NCBI GenBank assembly: GCA_018661705.1
Contig: JABJHR010000017.1
Coordinates: 1-64,000, forward strand
Origin: Candidatus Woesearchaeota archaeon
GTDB lineage: Archaea; Nanobdellota; Nanobdellia; Woesearchaeales; DSVV01
Reading direction: 5' to 3'
Length of the DNA: 64,000 bases
Shown here: one piece after another, positions 5,097-34,801 of the stretch
Layout: each line of letters begins with the position of its first letter
Numbering within the stretch: the stretch's first letter is position 1
Translations under genes and position numbers: made by a program
The notes under the pieces: model-generated
The model's database searches: none
Seen by the model: only the letters and a program-made list of their open reading frames with translations
Told to the model about the DNA's origin: nothing

Positions 5097-5242
5097 TTAC
5101 TATTTTAATGGTCTGTGGAATAATGAAGACATAACTTCTTAATAAGTTTAATTTAGAAAAAATTGTAGATTTTCCGACGACAACCGGAAATGATATTTAA
5201 GAGAAGAATAAAACCCGGAAGATTTCCGGAAAGATTACATAG

Positions 5243-5318
5243 AAAATAATAACAATGGCCAGATGAGGCGAAGCCGAATAGGACTTTAGTCTGTCTGTGC
5301 CAAGATTGTTATTATTTT
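5243..5318 (+). ncRNA. Family 1 structured element, copy 1 (three-way-junction RNA candidate)
   Basis: Outer arms AAAATAATAACAAT and ATTGTTATTATTTT pair perfectly over 14 bases. Inside follow GGC/GCC and CAGA/TCTG, then two small hairpins: GGC-GAA-GCC and GGAC-TTTA-GTCT. The 3' end runs into a T-rich tract. A TATA-like ATATTTAAG at about 5192-5200 sits about 25-30 bases before a plausible RNA start. Two further copies (19218-19298, minus strand; 34105-34179) keep the fold with different stem sequences. No known RNA family comes to mind. Confidence 0.6.
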
Positions 5319-5341
5319 TTATATATAATCTAATTAAAAAA

Positions 5342-18203: not shown

Positions 18204-19160
18204 TTAGTGGGTTTTAAAATACTCATTAACTAATTCTAGAAGTTCATTTTCATCTTTTGTTTGCATTAATTTAACCCTAAACTCTTTTGCTCCCTTCAAC
18301 CATTTCCAGGACCACATTATATGTTGCTTTAGTTCACCAAACCTATATTTGTTTTGTTTGTTTTTGTATAAGTCCATTAATCTTATAGTTGCATCATGCC
18401 TTTCTTGCATAGAAGGTCTATATTCTTTTCCTCGCTCCAAGAAATCATTGCATTCTTTAAACACAAAAGGATAACCCATTGCTCCCCTACCAATCATTAC
18501 AAAATCACAACCTGTTTTATCTAACATTGATTTACCTAAAAAACCATTTGTAACATCACCATTACCAATAACAGGAATGTTTACTGCATCTTTTAATTTT
18601 TTAATCAAAGTCCAATCTGCTTTTCCAGCATAAACTTGCTTTTTAGTTCTTGCATGCAAAGCAACTGCCTCTGCACCACTATCCTCAATCATTTTTCCAA
18701 CTTCAACGCAATTAATTGATTTTTCATCCCAACCTGATCTGATCTTTGCCGTAACTGGTTTATTTGTAGCACCAATTGCCGCTCCCAAGATTTTAGGAAT
18801 TTTATCAGGATGTTTTACTAAGTATGCACCCATTTTCCAACCTAAAACATCACCATCAGGACAACCAAAATTAAAATCAATAATATCTGCATATGGCTCA
18901 ACAATCTCAACTGCTTCCTTAATTGTTTTAGGATCATTTCCAATTAACTGAACAGCTATTGGTTTTTCCTCTTTACAAAATTCAATTGCCTCTGGCAGCT
19001 TTTTTTCCTTAACTAGCCAATTAACATGTATCATAGAACTATAAACTAATCCTGCGCCATATTCCTTACATAACAACCTAAAAGCCATACAATTAACACC
19101 ATGCAATGGAGCTAAGATAAATGGATTTTCTAGCTTTACTTTACCTATTTTAAGTGTCAT
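18204..19160 (-). CDS. tRNA-dihydrouridine synthase
   Basis: Flavin enzyme that reduces uridines in the tRNA D-loop. The TIM-barrel motifs of the Dus family are present: NPFILAPLHGVNCMAFRLLC at the N-terminus, FNFGCPDGDVLGWKMGAYL (with the catalytic Cys and Lys region, near residue 100), ALHARTKKQVYAGKADW (substrate/FMN phosphate loop), PVIGNGDV and VMIGRGAMGYPFVF. Length (318 aa) is normal. The family consensus around the Cys is NxGCP; here it is FGCPDGDVLG. Ends one base from the duplicated promoter. Confidence 0.92.
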   Translation of the reverse strand: MTLKIGKVKLENPFILAPLHGVNCMAFRLLCKEYGAGLVYSSMIHVNWLVKEKKLPEAIEFCKEEKPIAVQLIGNDPKTIKEAVEIVEPYADIIDFNFGCPDGDVLGWKMGAYLVKHPDKIPKILGAAIGATNKPVTAKIRSGWDEKSINCVEVGKMIEDSGAEAVALHARTKKQVYAGKADWTLIKKLKDAVNIPVIGNGDVTNGFLGKSMLDKTGCDFVMIGRGAMGYPFVFKECNDFLERGKEYRPSMQERHDATIRLMDLYKNKQNKYRFGELKQHIMWSWKWLKGAKEFRVKLMQTKDENELLELVNEYFKTH

Positions 19161-19217: not shown

Positions 19218-19298
19218 AAAAATACAACAACAACAAAGGCTCAGACGGACTAAAGTCCTATTCACCTTCGGTTCATCTGGCCATGTTATTGCATTTTT
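19218..19298 (-). ncRNA. Family 1 structured element, copy 2
   Basis: Minus-strand copy. Outer arms (minus-strand reading) AAAAATGCAATAAC and GTTGTTGTATTTTT pair over 14 positions, with two G-U/U-G wobbles that would be mismatches on the other strand; this fixes the RNA strand. The inner hairpin is ACC-GAA-GGT and the next GGAC-TTTA-GTCC, with CAGA/TCTG closing the junction. A TATA-like ATATATAT at 19317-19324 is 20-25 bases ahead. It lies between the divergent Dus and OTCase genes. Confidence 0.6.
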
Positions 19299-19386: not shown

Positions 19387-20316
19387 ATGAAAGACCTACT
19401 AAGTCTAAAAGATGTAAATAAGGAATTTGTTCTGAGTGTGATTGAAAAAGCAATTGATATGAAACAAAATCCAGATAATTATAGAACAGCTCTAAAAGAT
19501 AAAACACTATTAATGATATTTGAGAAACCATCATTAAGAACTAGAGTTAGCTTTGAAGTTGGAATGACTCAAATGGGAGGGCATGCTATTTATTATGATG
19601 TCTCAACTAGCCCATTAGGTAGAAAAGAAACTATTGAAGATACTGCAAAAACATCTGAAAGATATGTTGAGATAATTATGGCAAGATTAAATCATTTTTC
19701 AGATTGTAAAGCTCTTGCAGAGAATGCAAAAATTCCTGTAATTGATGCACTAAGTGATATGAACCACCCTTGCCAAATATTATGTGATCTACAAACTATC
19801 AAAGAAAAGTTTGGAAAATTAAATGGACTAACATTAGCATATGTTGGTGATTCTGAAAATAATGTTACTTATAGTTTAATGCATGGTTGCGCACACGTCG
19901 GTATAAATGTTAGAGTTGGATGTCCTAATGATCCAGAACATAAACCAAAACAAGAAATTGTTGAGGAAGCAAAACTAATTGCTGCTCAAAACGGTTCAAC
20001 AATTGAAGTTTTCCATAATGCGGCAGACGCAGTCAAAGATGCAGACGTGGTTTATACAGATTCATGGATGAGTTATCATATTCCTGTAGATCAAATGGAA
20101 GTTAGAAAACAAAAACTAATGCCATACCAAGTAACATCTGCATTAATGCAACTTGCAAAACCAACTGCTGTATTCATGAACTGCTTGCCAGCAATGAGAG
20201 GCTTAGAACAAACAGCTGAAGTAGTAGACGGTCCACAAAGTATTGTATTCGATCAAGCAGAAAACAGATTGCATGTGCAGAAAGCAATAATGTTGAAGTT
20301 GTTGGGTATGTTTTAA
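19387..20316 (+). CDS. argF: Ornithine carbamoyltransferase-like protein with altered signature motifs
   Basis: The enzyme family joins carbamoyl phosphate to ornithine (or related amines). Seen: carbamoyl-phosphate loop SLRTRVSFE at 49-57 (usual S-T-R-T-R), NHPCQ at 126-130, FVGDSENNV-type dinucleotide fold at about 153, and the C-terminal CLPAxRG region. Two parts deviate: the ornithine-side HCLP is Asn265-Cys-Leu-Pro268, and the SMG loop reads DSWMSYHIP (225-233). The substrate may thus be another amine. GGTGA is placed 5 bases before ATG, with TATA-like TTTTTAAAG upstream. No other arginine gene is nearby. Confidence 0.8.
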   Translation: MKDLLSLKDVNKEFVLSVIEKAIDMKQNPDNYRTALKDKTLLMIFEKPSLRTRVSFEVGMTQMGGHAIYYDVSTSPLGRKETIEDTAKTSERYVEIIMARLNHFSDCKALAENAKIPVIDALSDMNHPCQILCDLQTIKEKFGKLNGLTLAYVGDSENNVTYSLMHGCAHVGINVRVGCPNDPEHKPKQEIVEEAKLIAAQNGSTIEVFHNAADAVKDADVVYTDSWMSYHIPVDQMEVRKQKLMPYQVTSALMQLAKPTAVFMNCLPAMRGLEQTAEVVDGPQSIVFDQAENRLHVQKAIMLKLLGMF

Positions 20317-30739: not shown

Positions 30740-30839
30740 TGGGCCGTACGAGATTCGAACTCGCGACCACTCGATTAAAAGTCGAGTGCTCTTTCCTGTG
30801 AATCATATAATAATTCATACCAGGCTGAGCTAACGGCCC
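30740..30839 (-). tRNA. tRNA-Lys(UUU) with a 26-nt intron in the D-loop
   Basis: Acceptor arms GGGCCGT/ACGGCCC with discriminator A at 30740; anticodon stem ACTCGAC...TCGAGT-type with loop CTTTTAA, so anticodon UUU (30777-30779); T-loop TTCGAAT. The D-loop is interrupted at 30793-30818. The insert forms a textbook bulge-helix-bulge: outer GCTC/GAGC, central CCTG/CAGG (4 bp), 3-base bulges GTA and AAA, inner TGAAT/ATTCA. Cutting after the second base of each bulge restores the normal D-arm GCTCAGCCTGGTAGAGC. Mature length is 74. No CCA encoded. Confidence 0.93.
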
Positions 30840-31845: not shown

Positions 31846-33966
31846 TTATTCCATGGGTACTTGACTCCAAAGTTGCCAATCATTGCTTGGAGAATATGCA
31901 CCAAAGATAAAATAAGGACTTTGCATTTGTCTAAAATAACTATGTTGAACATCGGCCCATCTTCCTGGAGCACCAACACCCCAACCAGTTCTTCCAATTG
32001 GACTTCCAAAAGCTCTCCAGGTCTCTGTTAAAATTCTGCCTTGACCAAATAATGCTTCTTCACCATGACCCTCAGAAATCATGGTTCCCTCAAATCCTTT
32101 CTTTTTCAAATATTCAACAGCTGTCTTTACAGGCAAATCACCTTGACCAACTGGTAAATGGTGGTGTCCACCGCCTAATCCATCAACAACGTGTAAATGC
32201 CCAATAATGTCCGCATCCTGCATTTTTTTGACTTCATCCATATACCAACCATCAAATCTTTTCTTTCTTTCAGCCCTTGTTTCCCCTGGATTGGGAGTAA
32301 AATGTTTCCACCACATACCTAAATGTTGTGTATCAATAGTTGCTCTGATATGACTTTTAGCTAATTTTTCTGCTTCTGTTTTTGCAATACCGGTATAATG
32401 AGGATTACTAACAGTTAATAGATTTCCTTTTCTATCTCGTCTTCTACCAGGATCCTCAATTGTTTTCTCGGTTAAAAATTCAACCATTCTTTTTCTTGCA
32501 TCCTGTACAAGACCAATTAATTCTTCTGGGTGAGAACCATAACCCATCTCAGGAAAAATATTTTCTGGTGCAATCGCAATAGGATCATGTGCATATTGTG
32601 ATTTTTTAGTCATTTCCATTGCATGAATACCAGCCTCAGCATAACTTGTAGAAGTTTGATCTTTTGCATAAGCCTCAACAGGAACAACGTGTAACAAAGT
32701 TTCATAAGTCTCGTCAGCATTTGCGTCTGATGCAGCTGAACTTTCTCTTGTAAACATTAAACTCATTTTTAGCTGGTGTAAATCATCCGCAAGAATTTCA
32801 GTCGGCATTTTTTTATCTGATGGAACAAATTGTCCACCAGCATATCTACCACTGACTGTATTATGATCTTTTAATAATTTCCATTGTTCTTCAATAGGCA
32901 TATCTTTTTCTACTTTTTTGAAAAATTCATATGCTTCCTTAATTTGTTCAAACTGTCTTTTCTCGTCTTCATAAAACCTACCGTGAAACAAAGAAGAACC
33001 TCTTGCTTGCAAGATTCTAGTCTCCATCTGAGACCTAAAAAACATTTCCTCAGGAGAATATTTCCTTCCTTTTCTCCAAGGTTCTTTATTGATATTATTC
33101 TCATTCCAATCATTTGCTCTGTCTACAAAATCATCCCAAGTTAATCTATTTGTATCGAATTTTGTTTCTTCATGATTCCAAATCGGAACACGATTAAACA
33201 AATCTTTAGGACTTGTTTCATCCAAAATTCTACCATCTGCATCAGTATATCTTTCCCTACCATCCTTATCAACAACAGTCATAAATTTAGGTTCATGAAC
33301 AATTTGAGATTTTCTAACCTCTGTAATTAATTTCCCTGTTCTGTCGTCTACCATGTAAAGAACTGCACGGCCTGGTTCCTCATTATAACTCATGAATTCC
33401 CATGTGCCGTCTTCTCTTTGTTTATTCCAATCTTGGGCAGTCATATCTCTTTGAAACTCACCAGTATGAACAACAATATTTCTAGCACCAACATCAGCCG
33501 CGAACTCAACTGCTTTCTTCACTTCTTCAATCTCAATTTTTCTATGTTCATCATTAAAACCACGTTCTTGTGGATTATAACCAGACATGTTTCCAATGTT
33601 TGTAGGGGTATGAACAGAAGTAAACTTAACAGAATTTGCACGCGCAAGATCTCTCAATGCTTCCCTAGCTTCTTTTCCATAAGCTTCTGCACCAGTTGCT
33701 TCTGCACCACCACCCATGTTAGTACTTAGTTCAACCCAACCTGCACCTCTTCTAATTGCATCCGTTGTTGTCTTAAGTAAACTACCAAATCTACTACCTT
33801 CAGGAACACTCATACCTATGTCACTTGCTTTCACTATAGGTGCTTCTATATTAGCTTCTGAACCACCAGGTCCTTCACCATAACCACCAAAGGTAGTTAC
33901 ATAAGCGCCACCACTATAATCTTGAGCATCTGGCCCTAAAAAACTATATCCTGATCCAAATTCCAT
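31846..33966 (-). CDS. Large TIM-barrel protein (xylose isomerase/AP endonuclease-like)
   Basis: About 706 residues. The first part has barrel strands typical of the AP-endonuclease-2/xylose-isomerase-like superfamily: GAGWVELSTN, VKFTSVHTP, and a metal-site-like VGARNIVVHTGEF; the last part closes with IRATIDTQHLGMWW, IIGHLHVVDGLGGGHHHLPVGQGDLP and GTMISEGHGEEAL, which supply His, Asp and Glu metal ligands. A charged, mostly helical insertion of some 300 residues lies between. I chose Met33966, because the TATA-like TTTATATATTAA is 22-34 bases upstream. Exact reaction unknown. Confidence 0.75.
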   Translation of the reverse strand: MEFGSGYSFLGPDAQDYSGGAYVTTFGGYGEGPGGSEANIEAPIVKASDIGMSVPEGSRFGSLLKTTTDAIRRGAGWVELSTNMGGGAEATGAEAYGKEAREALRDLARANSVKFTSVHTPTNIGNMSGYNPQERGFNDEHRKIEIEEVKKAVEFAADVGARNIVVHTGEFQRDMTAQDWNKQREDGTWEFMSYNEEPGRAVLYMVDDRTGKLITEVRKSQIVHEPKFMTVVDKDGRERYTDADGRILDETSPKDLFNRVPIWNHEETKFDTNRLTWDDFVDRANDWNENNINKEPWRKGRKYSPEEMFFRSQMETRILQARGSSLFHGRFYEDEKRQFEQIKEAYEFFKKVEKDMPIEEQWKLLKDHNTVSGRYAGGQFVPSDKKMPTEILADDLHQLKMSLMFTRESSAASDANADETYETLLHVVPVEAYAKDQTSTSYAEAGIHAMEMTKKSQYAHDPIAIAPENIFPEMGYGSHPEELIGLVQDARKRMVEFLTEKTIEDPGRRRDRKGNLLTVSNPHYTGIAKTEAEKLAKSHIRATIDTQHLGMWWKHFTPNPGETRAERKKRFDGWYMDEVKKMQDADIIGHLHVVDGLGGGHHHLPVGQGDLPVKTAVEYLKKKGFEGTMISEGHGEEALFGQGRILTETWRAFGSPIGRTGWGVGAPGRWADVQHSYFRQMQSPYFIFGAYSPSNDWQLWSQVPME

Positions 33967-33969
33967 AAG

Positions 33970-33999
33970 TATACTCATGAGTATATTAATATATAAATG
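33970..33999 (-). promoter_or_regulatory. Promoter with 16-bp perfect palindrome
   Basis: TATACTCATGAGTATA (33970-33985) is a perfect palindrome placed between a TATA-like TTTATATATTAA (minus strand, about 33988-33999) and the TIM-barrel start codon at 33966. Its location over the expected transcription start fits a repressor site. Confidence 0.5.
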
Positions 34000-34104
34000 T
34001 TATGGTAAAATGGTTTAATAGGACAATAAATCCAATAAAATAAAAAATCCCCACGAAAAAAAGAACTTAGATGTTTAAAAGTATCACACTACTTTGCTTT
34101 AATA

Positions 34105-34179
34105 CAAAAAACAATAAGGCCAGGCGAGGTGAAACCGAGTAGGACTTTAGTCCGTCTGTGCCTTTGTTGTTGTTTTTTG
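34105..34179 (+). ncRNA. Family 1 structured element, copy 3
   Basis: Outer arms CAAAAAACAATAA and TTTGTTGTTGTTTTTTG pair with two small bulges; GGC/GCC and CAGG/TCTG close the junction; inner hairpins are GGT-GAA-ACC and GGAC-TTTA-GTCC. A TATA-like TTTAAAAG at about 34073-34080 is 25-30 bases upstream, and the 3' side ends in a T-run. It lies between the divergent TIM-barrel and cysteine-hydrolase genes. See 5243-5318. Confidence 0.6.
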
Positions 34180-34240
34180 TTGATACATTACAAACCATAA
34201 AATCAGAAAATATTTAATCTAAAAGAACTAAAAAAGATTT

Positions 34241-34801
34241 ATGACAAATGAAACAGCATTATTTGTAATTGACATGCAAAATGATTTTGTTGAAAAAGAT
34301 TCTTTGATTGAAGTAAAAGAAATTAGAGAAAACATTCCAAAATTCAAAAAATTTCTTAAAGATTGTAGAAAAAAAGGTTATTTAATAGTTCATACAAGAC
34401 ATTGTTATGATCCTAAAAAAAATCCAATTGAAGCAAAATTATTTTCTGAACTTAGAGGCGGTGGATTAAGAAGAAAAACACATGGTTGGGAAATCTATAA
34501 AGAATTAAAACCAGAAAAAGGAGAAATTGTAATTGATAAAACAAGATATGATGCTTTCTTTAAAACAGATCTTGAAAAAATTCTTAAGAAAAATAAAATC
34601 AAAAAAATAATTATCACAGGAACAATGACTAACATTTGTTGTGAATCAACTGCAAGAGGAGGAATGTACAGAGACTTTGAAATTATATTTTGTTCTGATC
34701 TTACATTCAGCAGAAATAAACAAAAACAAGAAGGAACATTAGTAACAATTAAATCACACTTTGGAAAAGTAATGAGTTCTAAAGAGATTATTAATTTGTA
34801 A
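34241..34801 (+). CDS. Isochorismatase-family cysteine hydrolase
   Basis: The family (nicotinamidase, isochorismatase, carbamoylsarcosine amidase) uses an Asp-Lys-Cys triad. Here: Asp10 in VIDMQNDF, a Lys in VIDKTRYDAFFKTDL (near residue 93-105) and the nucleophile Cys in GTMTNICCESTARGG (about residue 133). The cis-peptide VIxT region is ITGTMTNICCE. Length 186 aa is usual. The true substrate may be nicotinamide, but no DxHxxxH metal site of nicotinamidases is clear, so it is left open. Confidence 0.88.
   Translation: MTNETALFVIDMQNDFVEKDSLIEVKEIRENIPKFKKFLKDCRKKGYLIVHTRHCYDPKKNPIEAKLFSELRGGGLRRKTHGWEIYKELKPEKGEIVIDKTRYDAFFKTDLEKILKKNKIKKIIITGTMTNICCESTARGGMYRDFEIIFCSDLTFSRNKQKQEGTLVTIKSHFGKVMSSKEIINL

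Follow-up and report, generated by a model that had tools for sequence, protein, structure and literature searches.

The question raised by this locus is whether a short intergenic sequence with a predicted three-way junction is a small RNA gene or a dispersed mobile repeat. The window analysed is a 64,000 nt stretch of DNA, positions 1–64000 of contig C12 in a 1.65-Mb Woesearchaeales genome (G000). It has a GC content of 31%, and only about 10% of it is outside open reading frames of 80 codons or more. The three copies proposed in a first-pass annotation are confirmed (Table 1). The stem exchanges GGC/GCC, ACC/GGT and GGT/ACC around a GAA sequence are real in these copies, as is a CAGG/TCTG variant of the CAGA/TCTG stem. 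Genes near the window copies (CYTH, Dus, OTCase and isochorismatase) are functionally unrelated.

Table 1. Positions of the element copies, the parts of copy 1 and an associated hairpin in the window
Feature	Position	Strand	Basis
Copy 1, whole element (outer arms and three-way junction)	5240–5321	+	R1, 81.3 bits
Copy 1, outer AT-rich arm, 5' half; partner 5305–5317, 13 of 13 pairs	5244–5256	+	Sequence; helix 1 of covariation tests
Copy 1, P1 5' strand GGCCAGA; partners 5294–5297 and 5299–5301, U5298 bulged	5257–5263	+	
Copy 1, P2: U-A, G.A, A.G, GGC/GCC, GAA loop	5264–5278	+	Y-R and GGC/GCC covary
Copy 1, J23 = UA, near-invariant in the family; UA also in most distant members	5279–5280	+	Alignment
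Copy 1, P3: GGAC UUUA GUCU, short-loop variant	5281–5292	+	Sequence, covariation
Copy 1, J31 = G	5293	+	
Copy 1, outer arm, 3' half, T-rich	5305–5317	+	Sequence; A-run/T-run symmetry
Copy 2, between divergent OTCase (19387–20316, +) and Dus (18204–19160, -) genes	19218–19298	-	R1, 83.0 bits
Copy 3, between a gene with an AP_endonuc_2 domain (31846–33978, -) and an isochorismatase gene (34241–34801, +)	34102–34182	+	R1, 81.7 bits
Degenerate UE hairpin (second dispersed family) upstream of copy 3; ends approximate	34048–34085	+	Flank reading

Fold, covariation and strand bias

The outermost part of the fold is an AT-rich arm of about 13–14 bp (AAAAAATAAYAAC / GTTRTTATTTTTT). It encloses P1, where GGC and CAGA face UCUG, a bulged U and GCC. 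P2 consists of a Y-R pair, non-standard G.A and A.G pairs, and then GGC/GCC closed by the GAA loop. J23 (UA) leads to P3 (GGACUUU../..AAAGUCC), whose third pair is A-U, G.A or A.G, and J31 is a single G. Other families have a far longer P2 that contains the motif GRGG-RUUG-SCYCC-UUCG-GGRG-UG, and in distant families both G.A pairs of P2 are replaced by Watson-Crick pairs (e.g., GACGCGACG...GTCGCGTAGGAC at locus L049).

Minimum-energy folding of the three short window copies, one sequence each, does not return the junction, so the model rests on comparison. Among 25 copies, standard pairs occupy 96.5% of the pair cells, versus 45–55% in controls with slid partners, and two-sided changes are present at 16 of 32 pairs. 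With 81 members from many families, 94.3% of the cells are paired versus 37–48% in controls, and there are 480 two-sided changes at 30 of the 32 pairs versus 114 in shuffles. The 81-member alignment (A4) was fitted to the structure; the alignment of 25 copies (A2), made on sequence only, is therefore the fairer test of covariation. When the 1,384 column pairs of A2 are ranked by APC-corrected mutual information, each of the top nine is a proposed base pair. The three-way-junction fold is supported by very strong covariation, and the proposal that compensatory changes reflect a selected fold is upheld, as pairing is far above that in slid and shuffled controls.

The core mismatches are strongly asymmetric, with a G.T to A.C ratio of 93:10, or 54:10 when the systematic A-U/G-U pair of P1 is left out. 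In the outer arms the ratio is 45:21. A palindrome that acts only as double-stranded DNA, or one kept symmetrical by template switching, should lack such a bias, which argues that selection most likely maintains the core fold on a single strand, either RNA or single-strand DNA. The first-pass annotation had left the choice between these two open. The apparent constraint to one strand follows from the G.T excess, and the same excess suggests RNA rather than single-strand DNA.

Copy number, distribution and site comparison

The family is far larger than the three copies first described. A blastn search with copy 1 finds 34 places in its own genome, and the covariance model R1, built from A2, finds 79 copies in the 1.65 Mb of G000 at E < 0.01. 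At least 70 copies are present in a sister species (G001), and R1 has matches in 16 of 60 relatives; a covariance-model search of the genome and its relatives, suggested as a check at first pass, thus yielded many more copies. A broader model, R2, matches 73 of 288 sampled genomes of the order Woesearchaeales. In a phylum-wide sample, for which the share from outside the order is not stated, 45 of 371 genomes have R2 matches and all 45 belong to this order. The exact core pattern is found in 24 stretches among 84,980 prokaryote genomes, all labelled Woesearchaeota or Nanoarchaeota/Nanoarchaeia. It has no match in plasmid and phage sequences. Membership of viruses was considered and rejected, as the single pattern match in IMG/VR is an unrelated sequence that has no other family features.

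No Rfam 15 family matches any copy at gathering thresholds, and permissive searches of 19 loci at E ≤ 3–5 give chance matches only; the expected absence from Rfam is borne out. Among the papers searched, none links Woesearchaeota to structured RNA or to a riboswitch, or DPANN to MITEs, and none of the six that link Woesearchaeota to non-coding RNA describes the element in its title or abstract.

The copies are intergenic and non-coding, and no clear gene is overlapped in G000. Two overlaps with open reading frames, some tens of bases long, look like ambiguities in start or end calling. Some copies lie 4–20 nt past stop codons. The flanking genes of G000 and G001 copies together, given relative to the element, are arranged as >> in 34 cases, >< in 23, <> in 32 and << in 31. 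The solitary copies of G000, i.e., those that have no UE hairpin (described below; n = 43), are distributed as 17 >>, 14 <>, 9 << and 3 ><, a lean to gene upstream regions that is not seen in G001. Orientation relative to genes is random for the G001 copies and for those G000 copies that are linked to UE.

Proteins of G000 and G001 are 70–90% identical. About ten sites have a copy at the same position and in the same orientation in both genomes, three common sites have the core reversed, and about ten G000 sites have no copy in G001. The G001 intergenic regions that correspond to C15:20794 and C16:53748 are short and do not contain the element. The clearest inversion is between G000 C9:14149 and G001 C59:47699, where the flanks align, as do the conserved outer arms AAAATCCAACAAC ... 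GTTGTTGGATT, and the core directions are opposite. As read from this alignment, the change is an inversion between the element's own arms.

Association with MITEs, UE hairpins and paired copies

In UBA9638, four intact MITE units of 184 bp hold the element. The unit ends, GGCTTCATCCAAAAA...TTTTTGGATGAAGCN, are terminal inverted repeats (TIRs), and all four units have perfect 9-bp target site duplications (TSDs): TAACACTAC, CGTTGGCAA, CTCTTAAAC and TAAAAGATG. Similar ends flank copies in genomes G005, G008 and G007. MITEs with the same ends that do not contain the junction core also exist, and one such G005 unit (L191) retains the palindromic arms (GCAAAAAACAATAATATGATTATTGTTTTTTGC). The first-pass annotation would have been overturned had the copies proved to be ends of a known transposable element. 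This condition applies in part: in UBA9638 the element does lie inside a MITE with TIRs and TSDs, but this MITE is uncatalogued as far as testable and the solitary copies have no TIR. In the G000 copies, inverted similarity from flank to flank is no better than in random pairings, i.e., there is no general TIR, and no clear TSD is seen at solitary copies.

An autonomous element with GGCTTCATCC ends could not be read in UBA9638, G005 or G007, where most unpaired ends are at contig ends or in runs of N. Contigs C2, C16, C44, C1, C10 and C99 of UBA9638 and C9, C36 and C51 of G007 begin or end in or near the GCTTCATCCAAAAA/GCTTCATCCAATAA end. This suggests an unassembled multicopy IS family that shares the MITE ends in UBA9638 and G007.

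A second hairpin, UE, is upstream of 36 of the 79 G000 copies at a near-fixed distance. It is also found alone and is sometimes inverted, after the junction element. UE has the form GTGAGTGACAT-[GGC UUC GCC / GUCC UUC GGAC / GC AUCC GC]-CTAGTGTTNAAGAGT, with compensatory changes in the stems (e.g., L136–L155).

At least 12 head-to-head pairs of diverged copies are present in different genera. The 5' ends are always together, with a spacing of 0–15 nt (55 nt in one pair), and in many pairs the partners differ in arm type, CACCACCAC in one and ATCCAGCC in the other. This arrangement is too regular for chance. Such doubles are seen at L231–L236, L239, L135:17885–18101, L127:10017–10249, L094:2501–2719, L067 and L173; L179 is the sole close head-to-tail pair seen. 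Remnants of partner copies are found in the upstream flanks at G000 C18:19369 and C12:119784, one of which consists of P1 and P2 with P3 missing and the other of arms only. A third palindrome, GCTTGATGTTAATCAAGCTTAATAATTTCGACTTTAGTCGTAATTATTATT, is situated in the right outer arm of the G000 copies at C3:122537, C3:124888, C14:131030 and C16:7495, and on the left side at C1:13085. These are nested palindromic insertions.

Possible explanations and relation to known systems

The best explanation, with roughly an even chance of being correct, is a dispersed palindromic repeat of the Woesearchaeales that is non-autonomous and similar to ERIC/BOX repeats and MITEs, with an undescribed strand-specific three-way junction as its core. 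Transposases of the host or of an element would move the copies in trans, either on their own or as cargo of MITEs with different end types, and the copies would be tolerated between genes. The junction may be retained because the folded strand, a transcript or extruded single-strand DNA, is recognised by a protein, and this putative protein would be needed for mobility or for tolerance of the copies. Since the outer arms can form a hairpin on either strand, a copy would be functional or neutral in both orientations. Transposition is evident for the MITE-borne form only. For the solitary form we infer mobility from the dispersal, the differing occupancy of sites and the random orientation. Several results weigh against a dispersed repeat. 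Fold conservation on the scale of the order and the roughly ten orthologous sites in genomes at 70–90% protein identity could fit a host function equally. No transposase is tied to the element, and neither Y1_Tnp nor reverse transcriptase tracks the copies. The upstream lean of the G000 solitary copies also counts against it, although G001 does not share this lean.

ERIC, BOX and Correia-type repeats of bacteria are imperfect palindromes of about 100 bp, found in tens of intergenic copies in both orientations, and may fold when transcribed. The element is likened to them by organisation only, as a multicopy, intergenic and orientation-independent palindrome. It differs in having at its centre a three-way junction, which shows compensatory change across the order and a G.T/A.C strand bias, and in its archaeal DPANN host. 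The UBA9638 form resembles a MITE in that it is short and non-coding, with GGCTTCATCC... TIRs and a 9-bp TSD, whereas solitary G000 and G001 copies have no TIR and the junction is found with different end types. The organisation is thus ERIC/BOX- and MITE-like, and there is a fair chance that the core represents a previously undescribed class of structured, mobile RNA. A more specific form of this idea is tentative: the core would be an independent, DPANN-specific RNA or single-strand DNA cargo, carried order-wide in several unrelated MITE backbones and spread as bare palindromes, with its fold kept by a putative protein partner and its direction flipped between its own arms, and would found such a class in archaea. 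The small genomes of DPANN archaea have so far yielded very few described structured non-coding elements. A covarying fold with about 80 copies in 1.65 Mb, and found order-wide, is either a major mobile element or a major RNA regulator of these ultra-small archaea that has gone unrecognised. The function of the ERIC/BOX class is a long-standing open question, and an archaeal, order-wide case would join that class. The question can be tested directly with the help of the covariance models, the target duplications in UBA9638 and the site with the inverted core.

A bidirectional RNA module that serves the host is rather unlikely but is the strongest of the alternatives. The element would lie between genes as, for instance, a terminator, an insulator or a protector of 3' or 5' ends, with arms that supply a U-tract on both strands and a junction that binds a putative processing or termination factor. 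The strictly intergenic location, the retention of orthologous sites and the strand-specific core are consistent with this, as is the U-rich arm on both strands, which would make inversion harmless. However, 14 solitary G000 copies are between divergent genes and only 3 between convergent genes, i.e., there is no convergent enrichment; the orientation of the upstream gene is random; and a covarying junction is unnecessary for a terminator. An intrinsic or factor-dependent terminator as such is rejected, as the upstream gene is in the sense direction in only about half of the copies in G000 and G001.

The first-pass annotation described each copy as having a TATA-like box ahead of it and a T-run after it, as expected of a gene that carries both a promoter and a terminator. 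That each copy is such a gene is not supported. TATA-like boxes are found at 18 of the 43 solitary copies versus 17.7 ± 2.7 in shuffles, and the T-run, although present, belongs to an AT-rich palindrome, of which it forms the 3' half, with an equal A-run on the other side. A multicopy family of trans-acting small RNAs, with a promoter for each copy, is improbable. The strand-specific, covarying and order-wide fold would suit such a family, but the boxes are at shuffle frequency, cores are inverted at conserved sites, and copies that lie 4–20 nt past stop codons or abut head-to-head leave no room for promoters.

It is less probable still that the element is a single-strand DNA substrate of an HUH transposase, of the IS200/IS605 or REP/RAYT-like type, with the fold as the recognised hairpin. 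The ends of these systems are likewise intergenic, strand-specific bulged hairpins, and the element has a strand-specific fold, a bulged T in P1, an intergenic location and a random orientation. Y1_Tnp (PF01797) is present in 12 of 16 genomes tested. These include the copy-free G002 and G004, however, and Y1_Tnp is undetected in G000 (79 copies, 92.8% complete), G013 and G007. No copy is within 1.5 kb of the four Y1 loci scanned, the 9-bp TSD of the UBA9638 carrier MITE is unlike IS200/IS605, and the element is a branched fold of 80–140 nt. A REP/RAYT system in particular is rejected on the G000 result and the four loci. A SINE-like retro-element is also rejected, as the two genomes richest in copies, G000 and G001, have no detected reverse transcriptase (PF00078). 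The attC sites of integrons keep the fold more than the sequence, have AAC/GTT in their arms and fold strand-specifically. This comparison is set aside because the element is branched, with covarying P2 and P3, and its copies are single or head-to-head and not in cassette arrays.

A candidate self-cleaving ribozyme is very unlikely. With its topology P1 - xUGAUGA - P2 - GAAUA - P3 - GU, the element is similar to a type I hammerhead in its helix order, in the UGA-stem II-GA arrangement and in the tandem G.A/A.G at the base of P2, and a few copies (class B) read CUGAUGA. The element sequences do not contain the conserved hammerhead core CUGANGA...GAAA...UH with A15.1-U16.1, however; this A-U pair is missing (GAA-UA ... 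GU). In addition, Rfam gives no ribozyme match, to the hammerhead or any other, even at E ≤ 5, the G.A pairs become Watson-Crick in other families, few unpaired positions are conserved, and the core nucleotides vary across the family.

A cis riboswitch or leader element is the least probable reading and is largely refuted by orientation: 31 of the 43 solitary G000 copies are sense to the downstream gene, but G001 has no orientation preference and cores are inverted at conserved sites. The orientation pattern and the unrelated functions of neighbour genes are a strong argument against a simple terminator or riboswitch.

A separate observation concerns positions 30748–30805 of the window (minus strand). 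An Rfam tRNA model matches here with 30.2 bits, barely over the gathering score, and ARAGORN reports no tRNA; the match raises the question of a degenerate or split tRNA gene.
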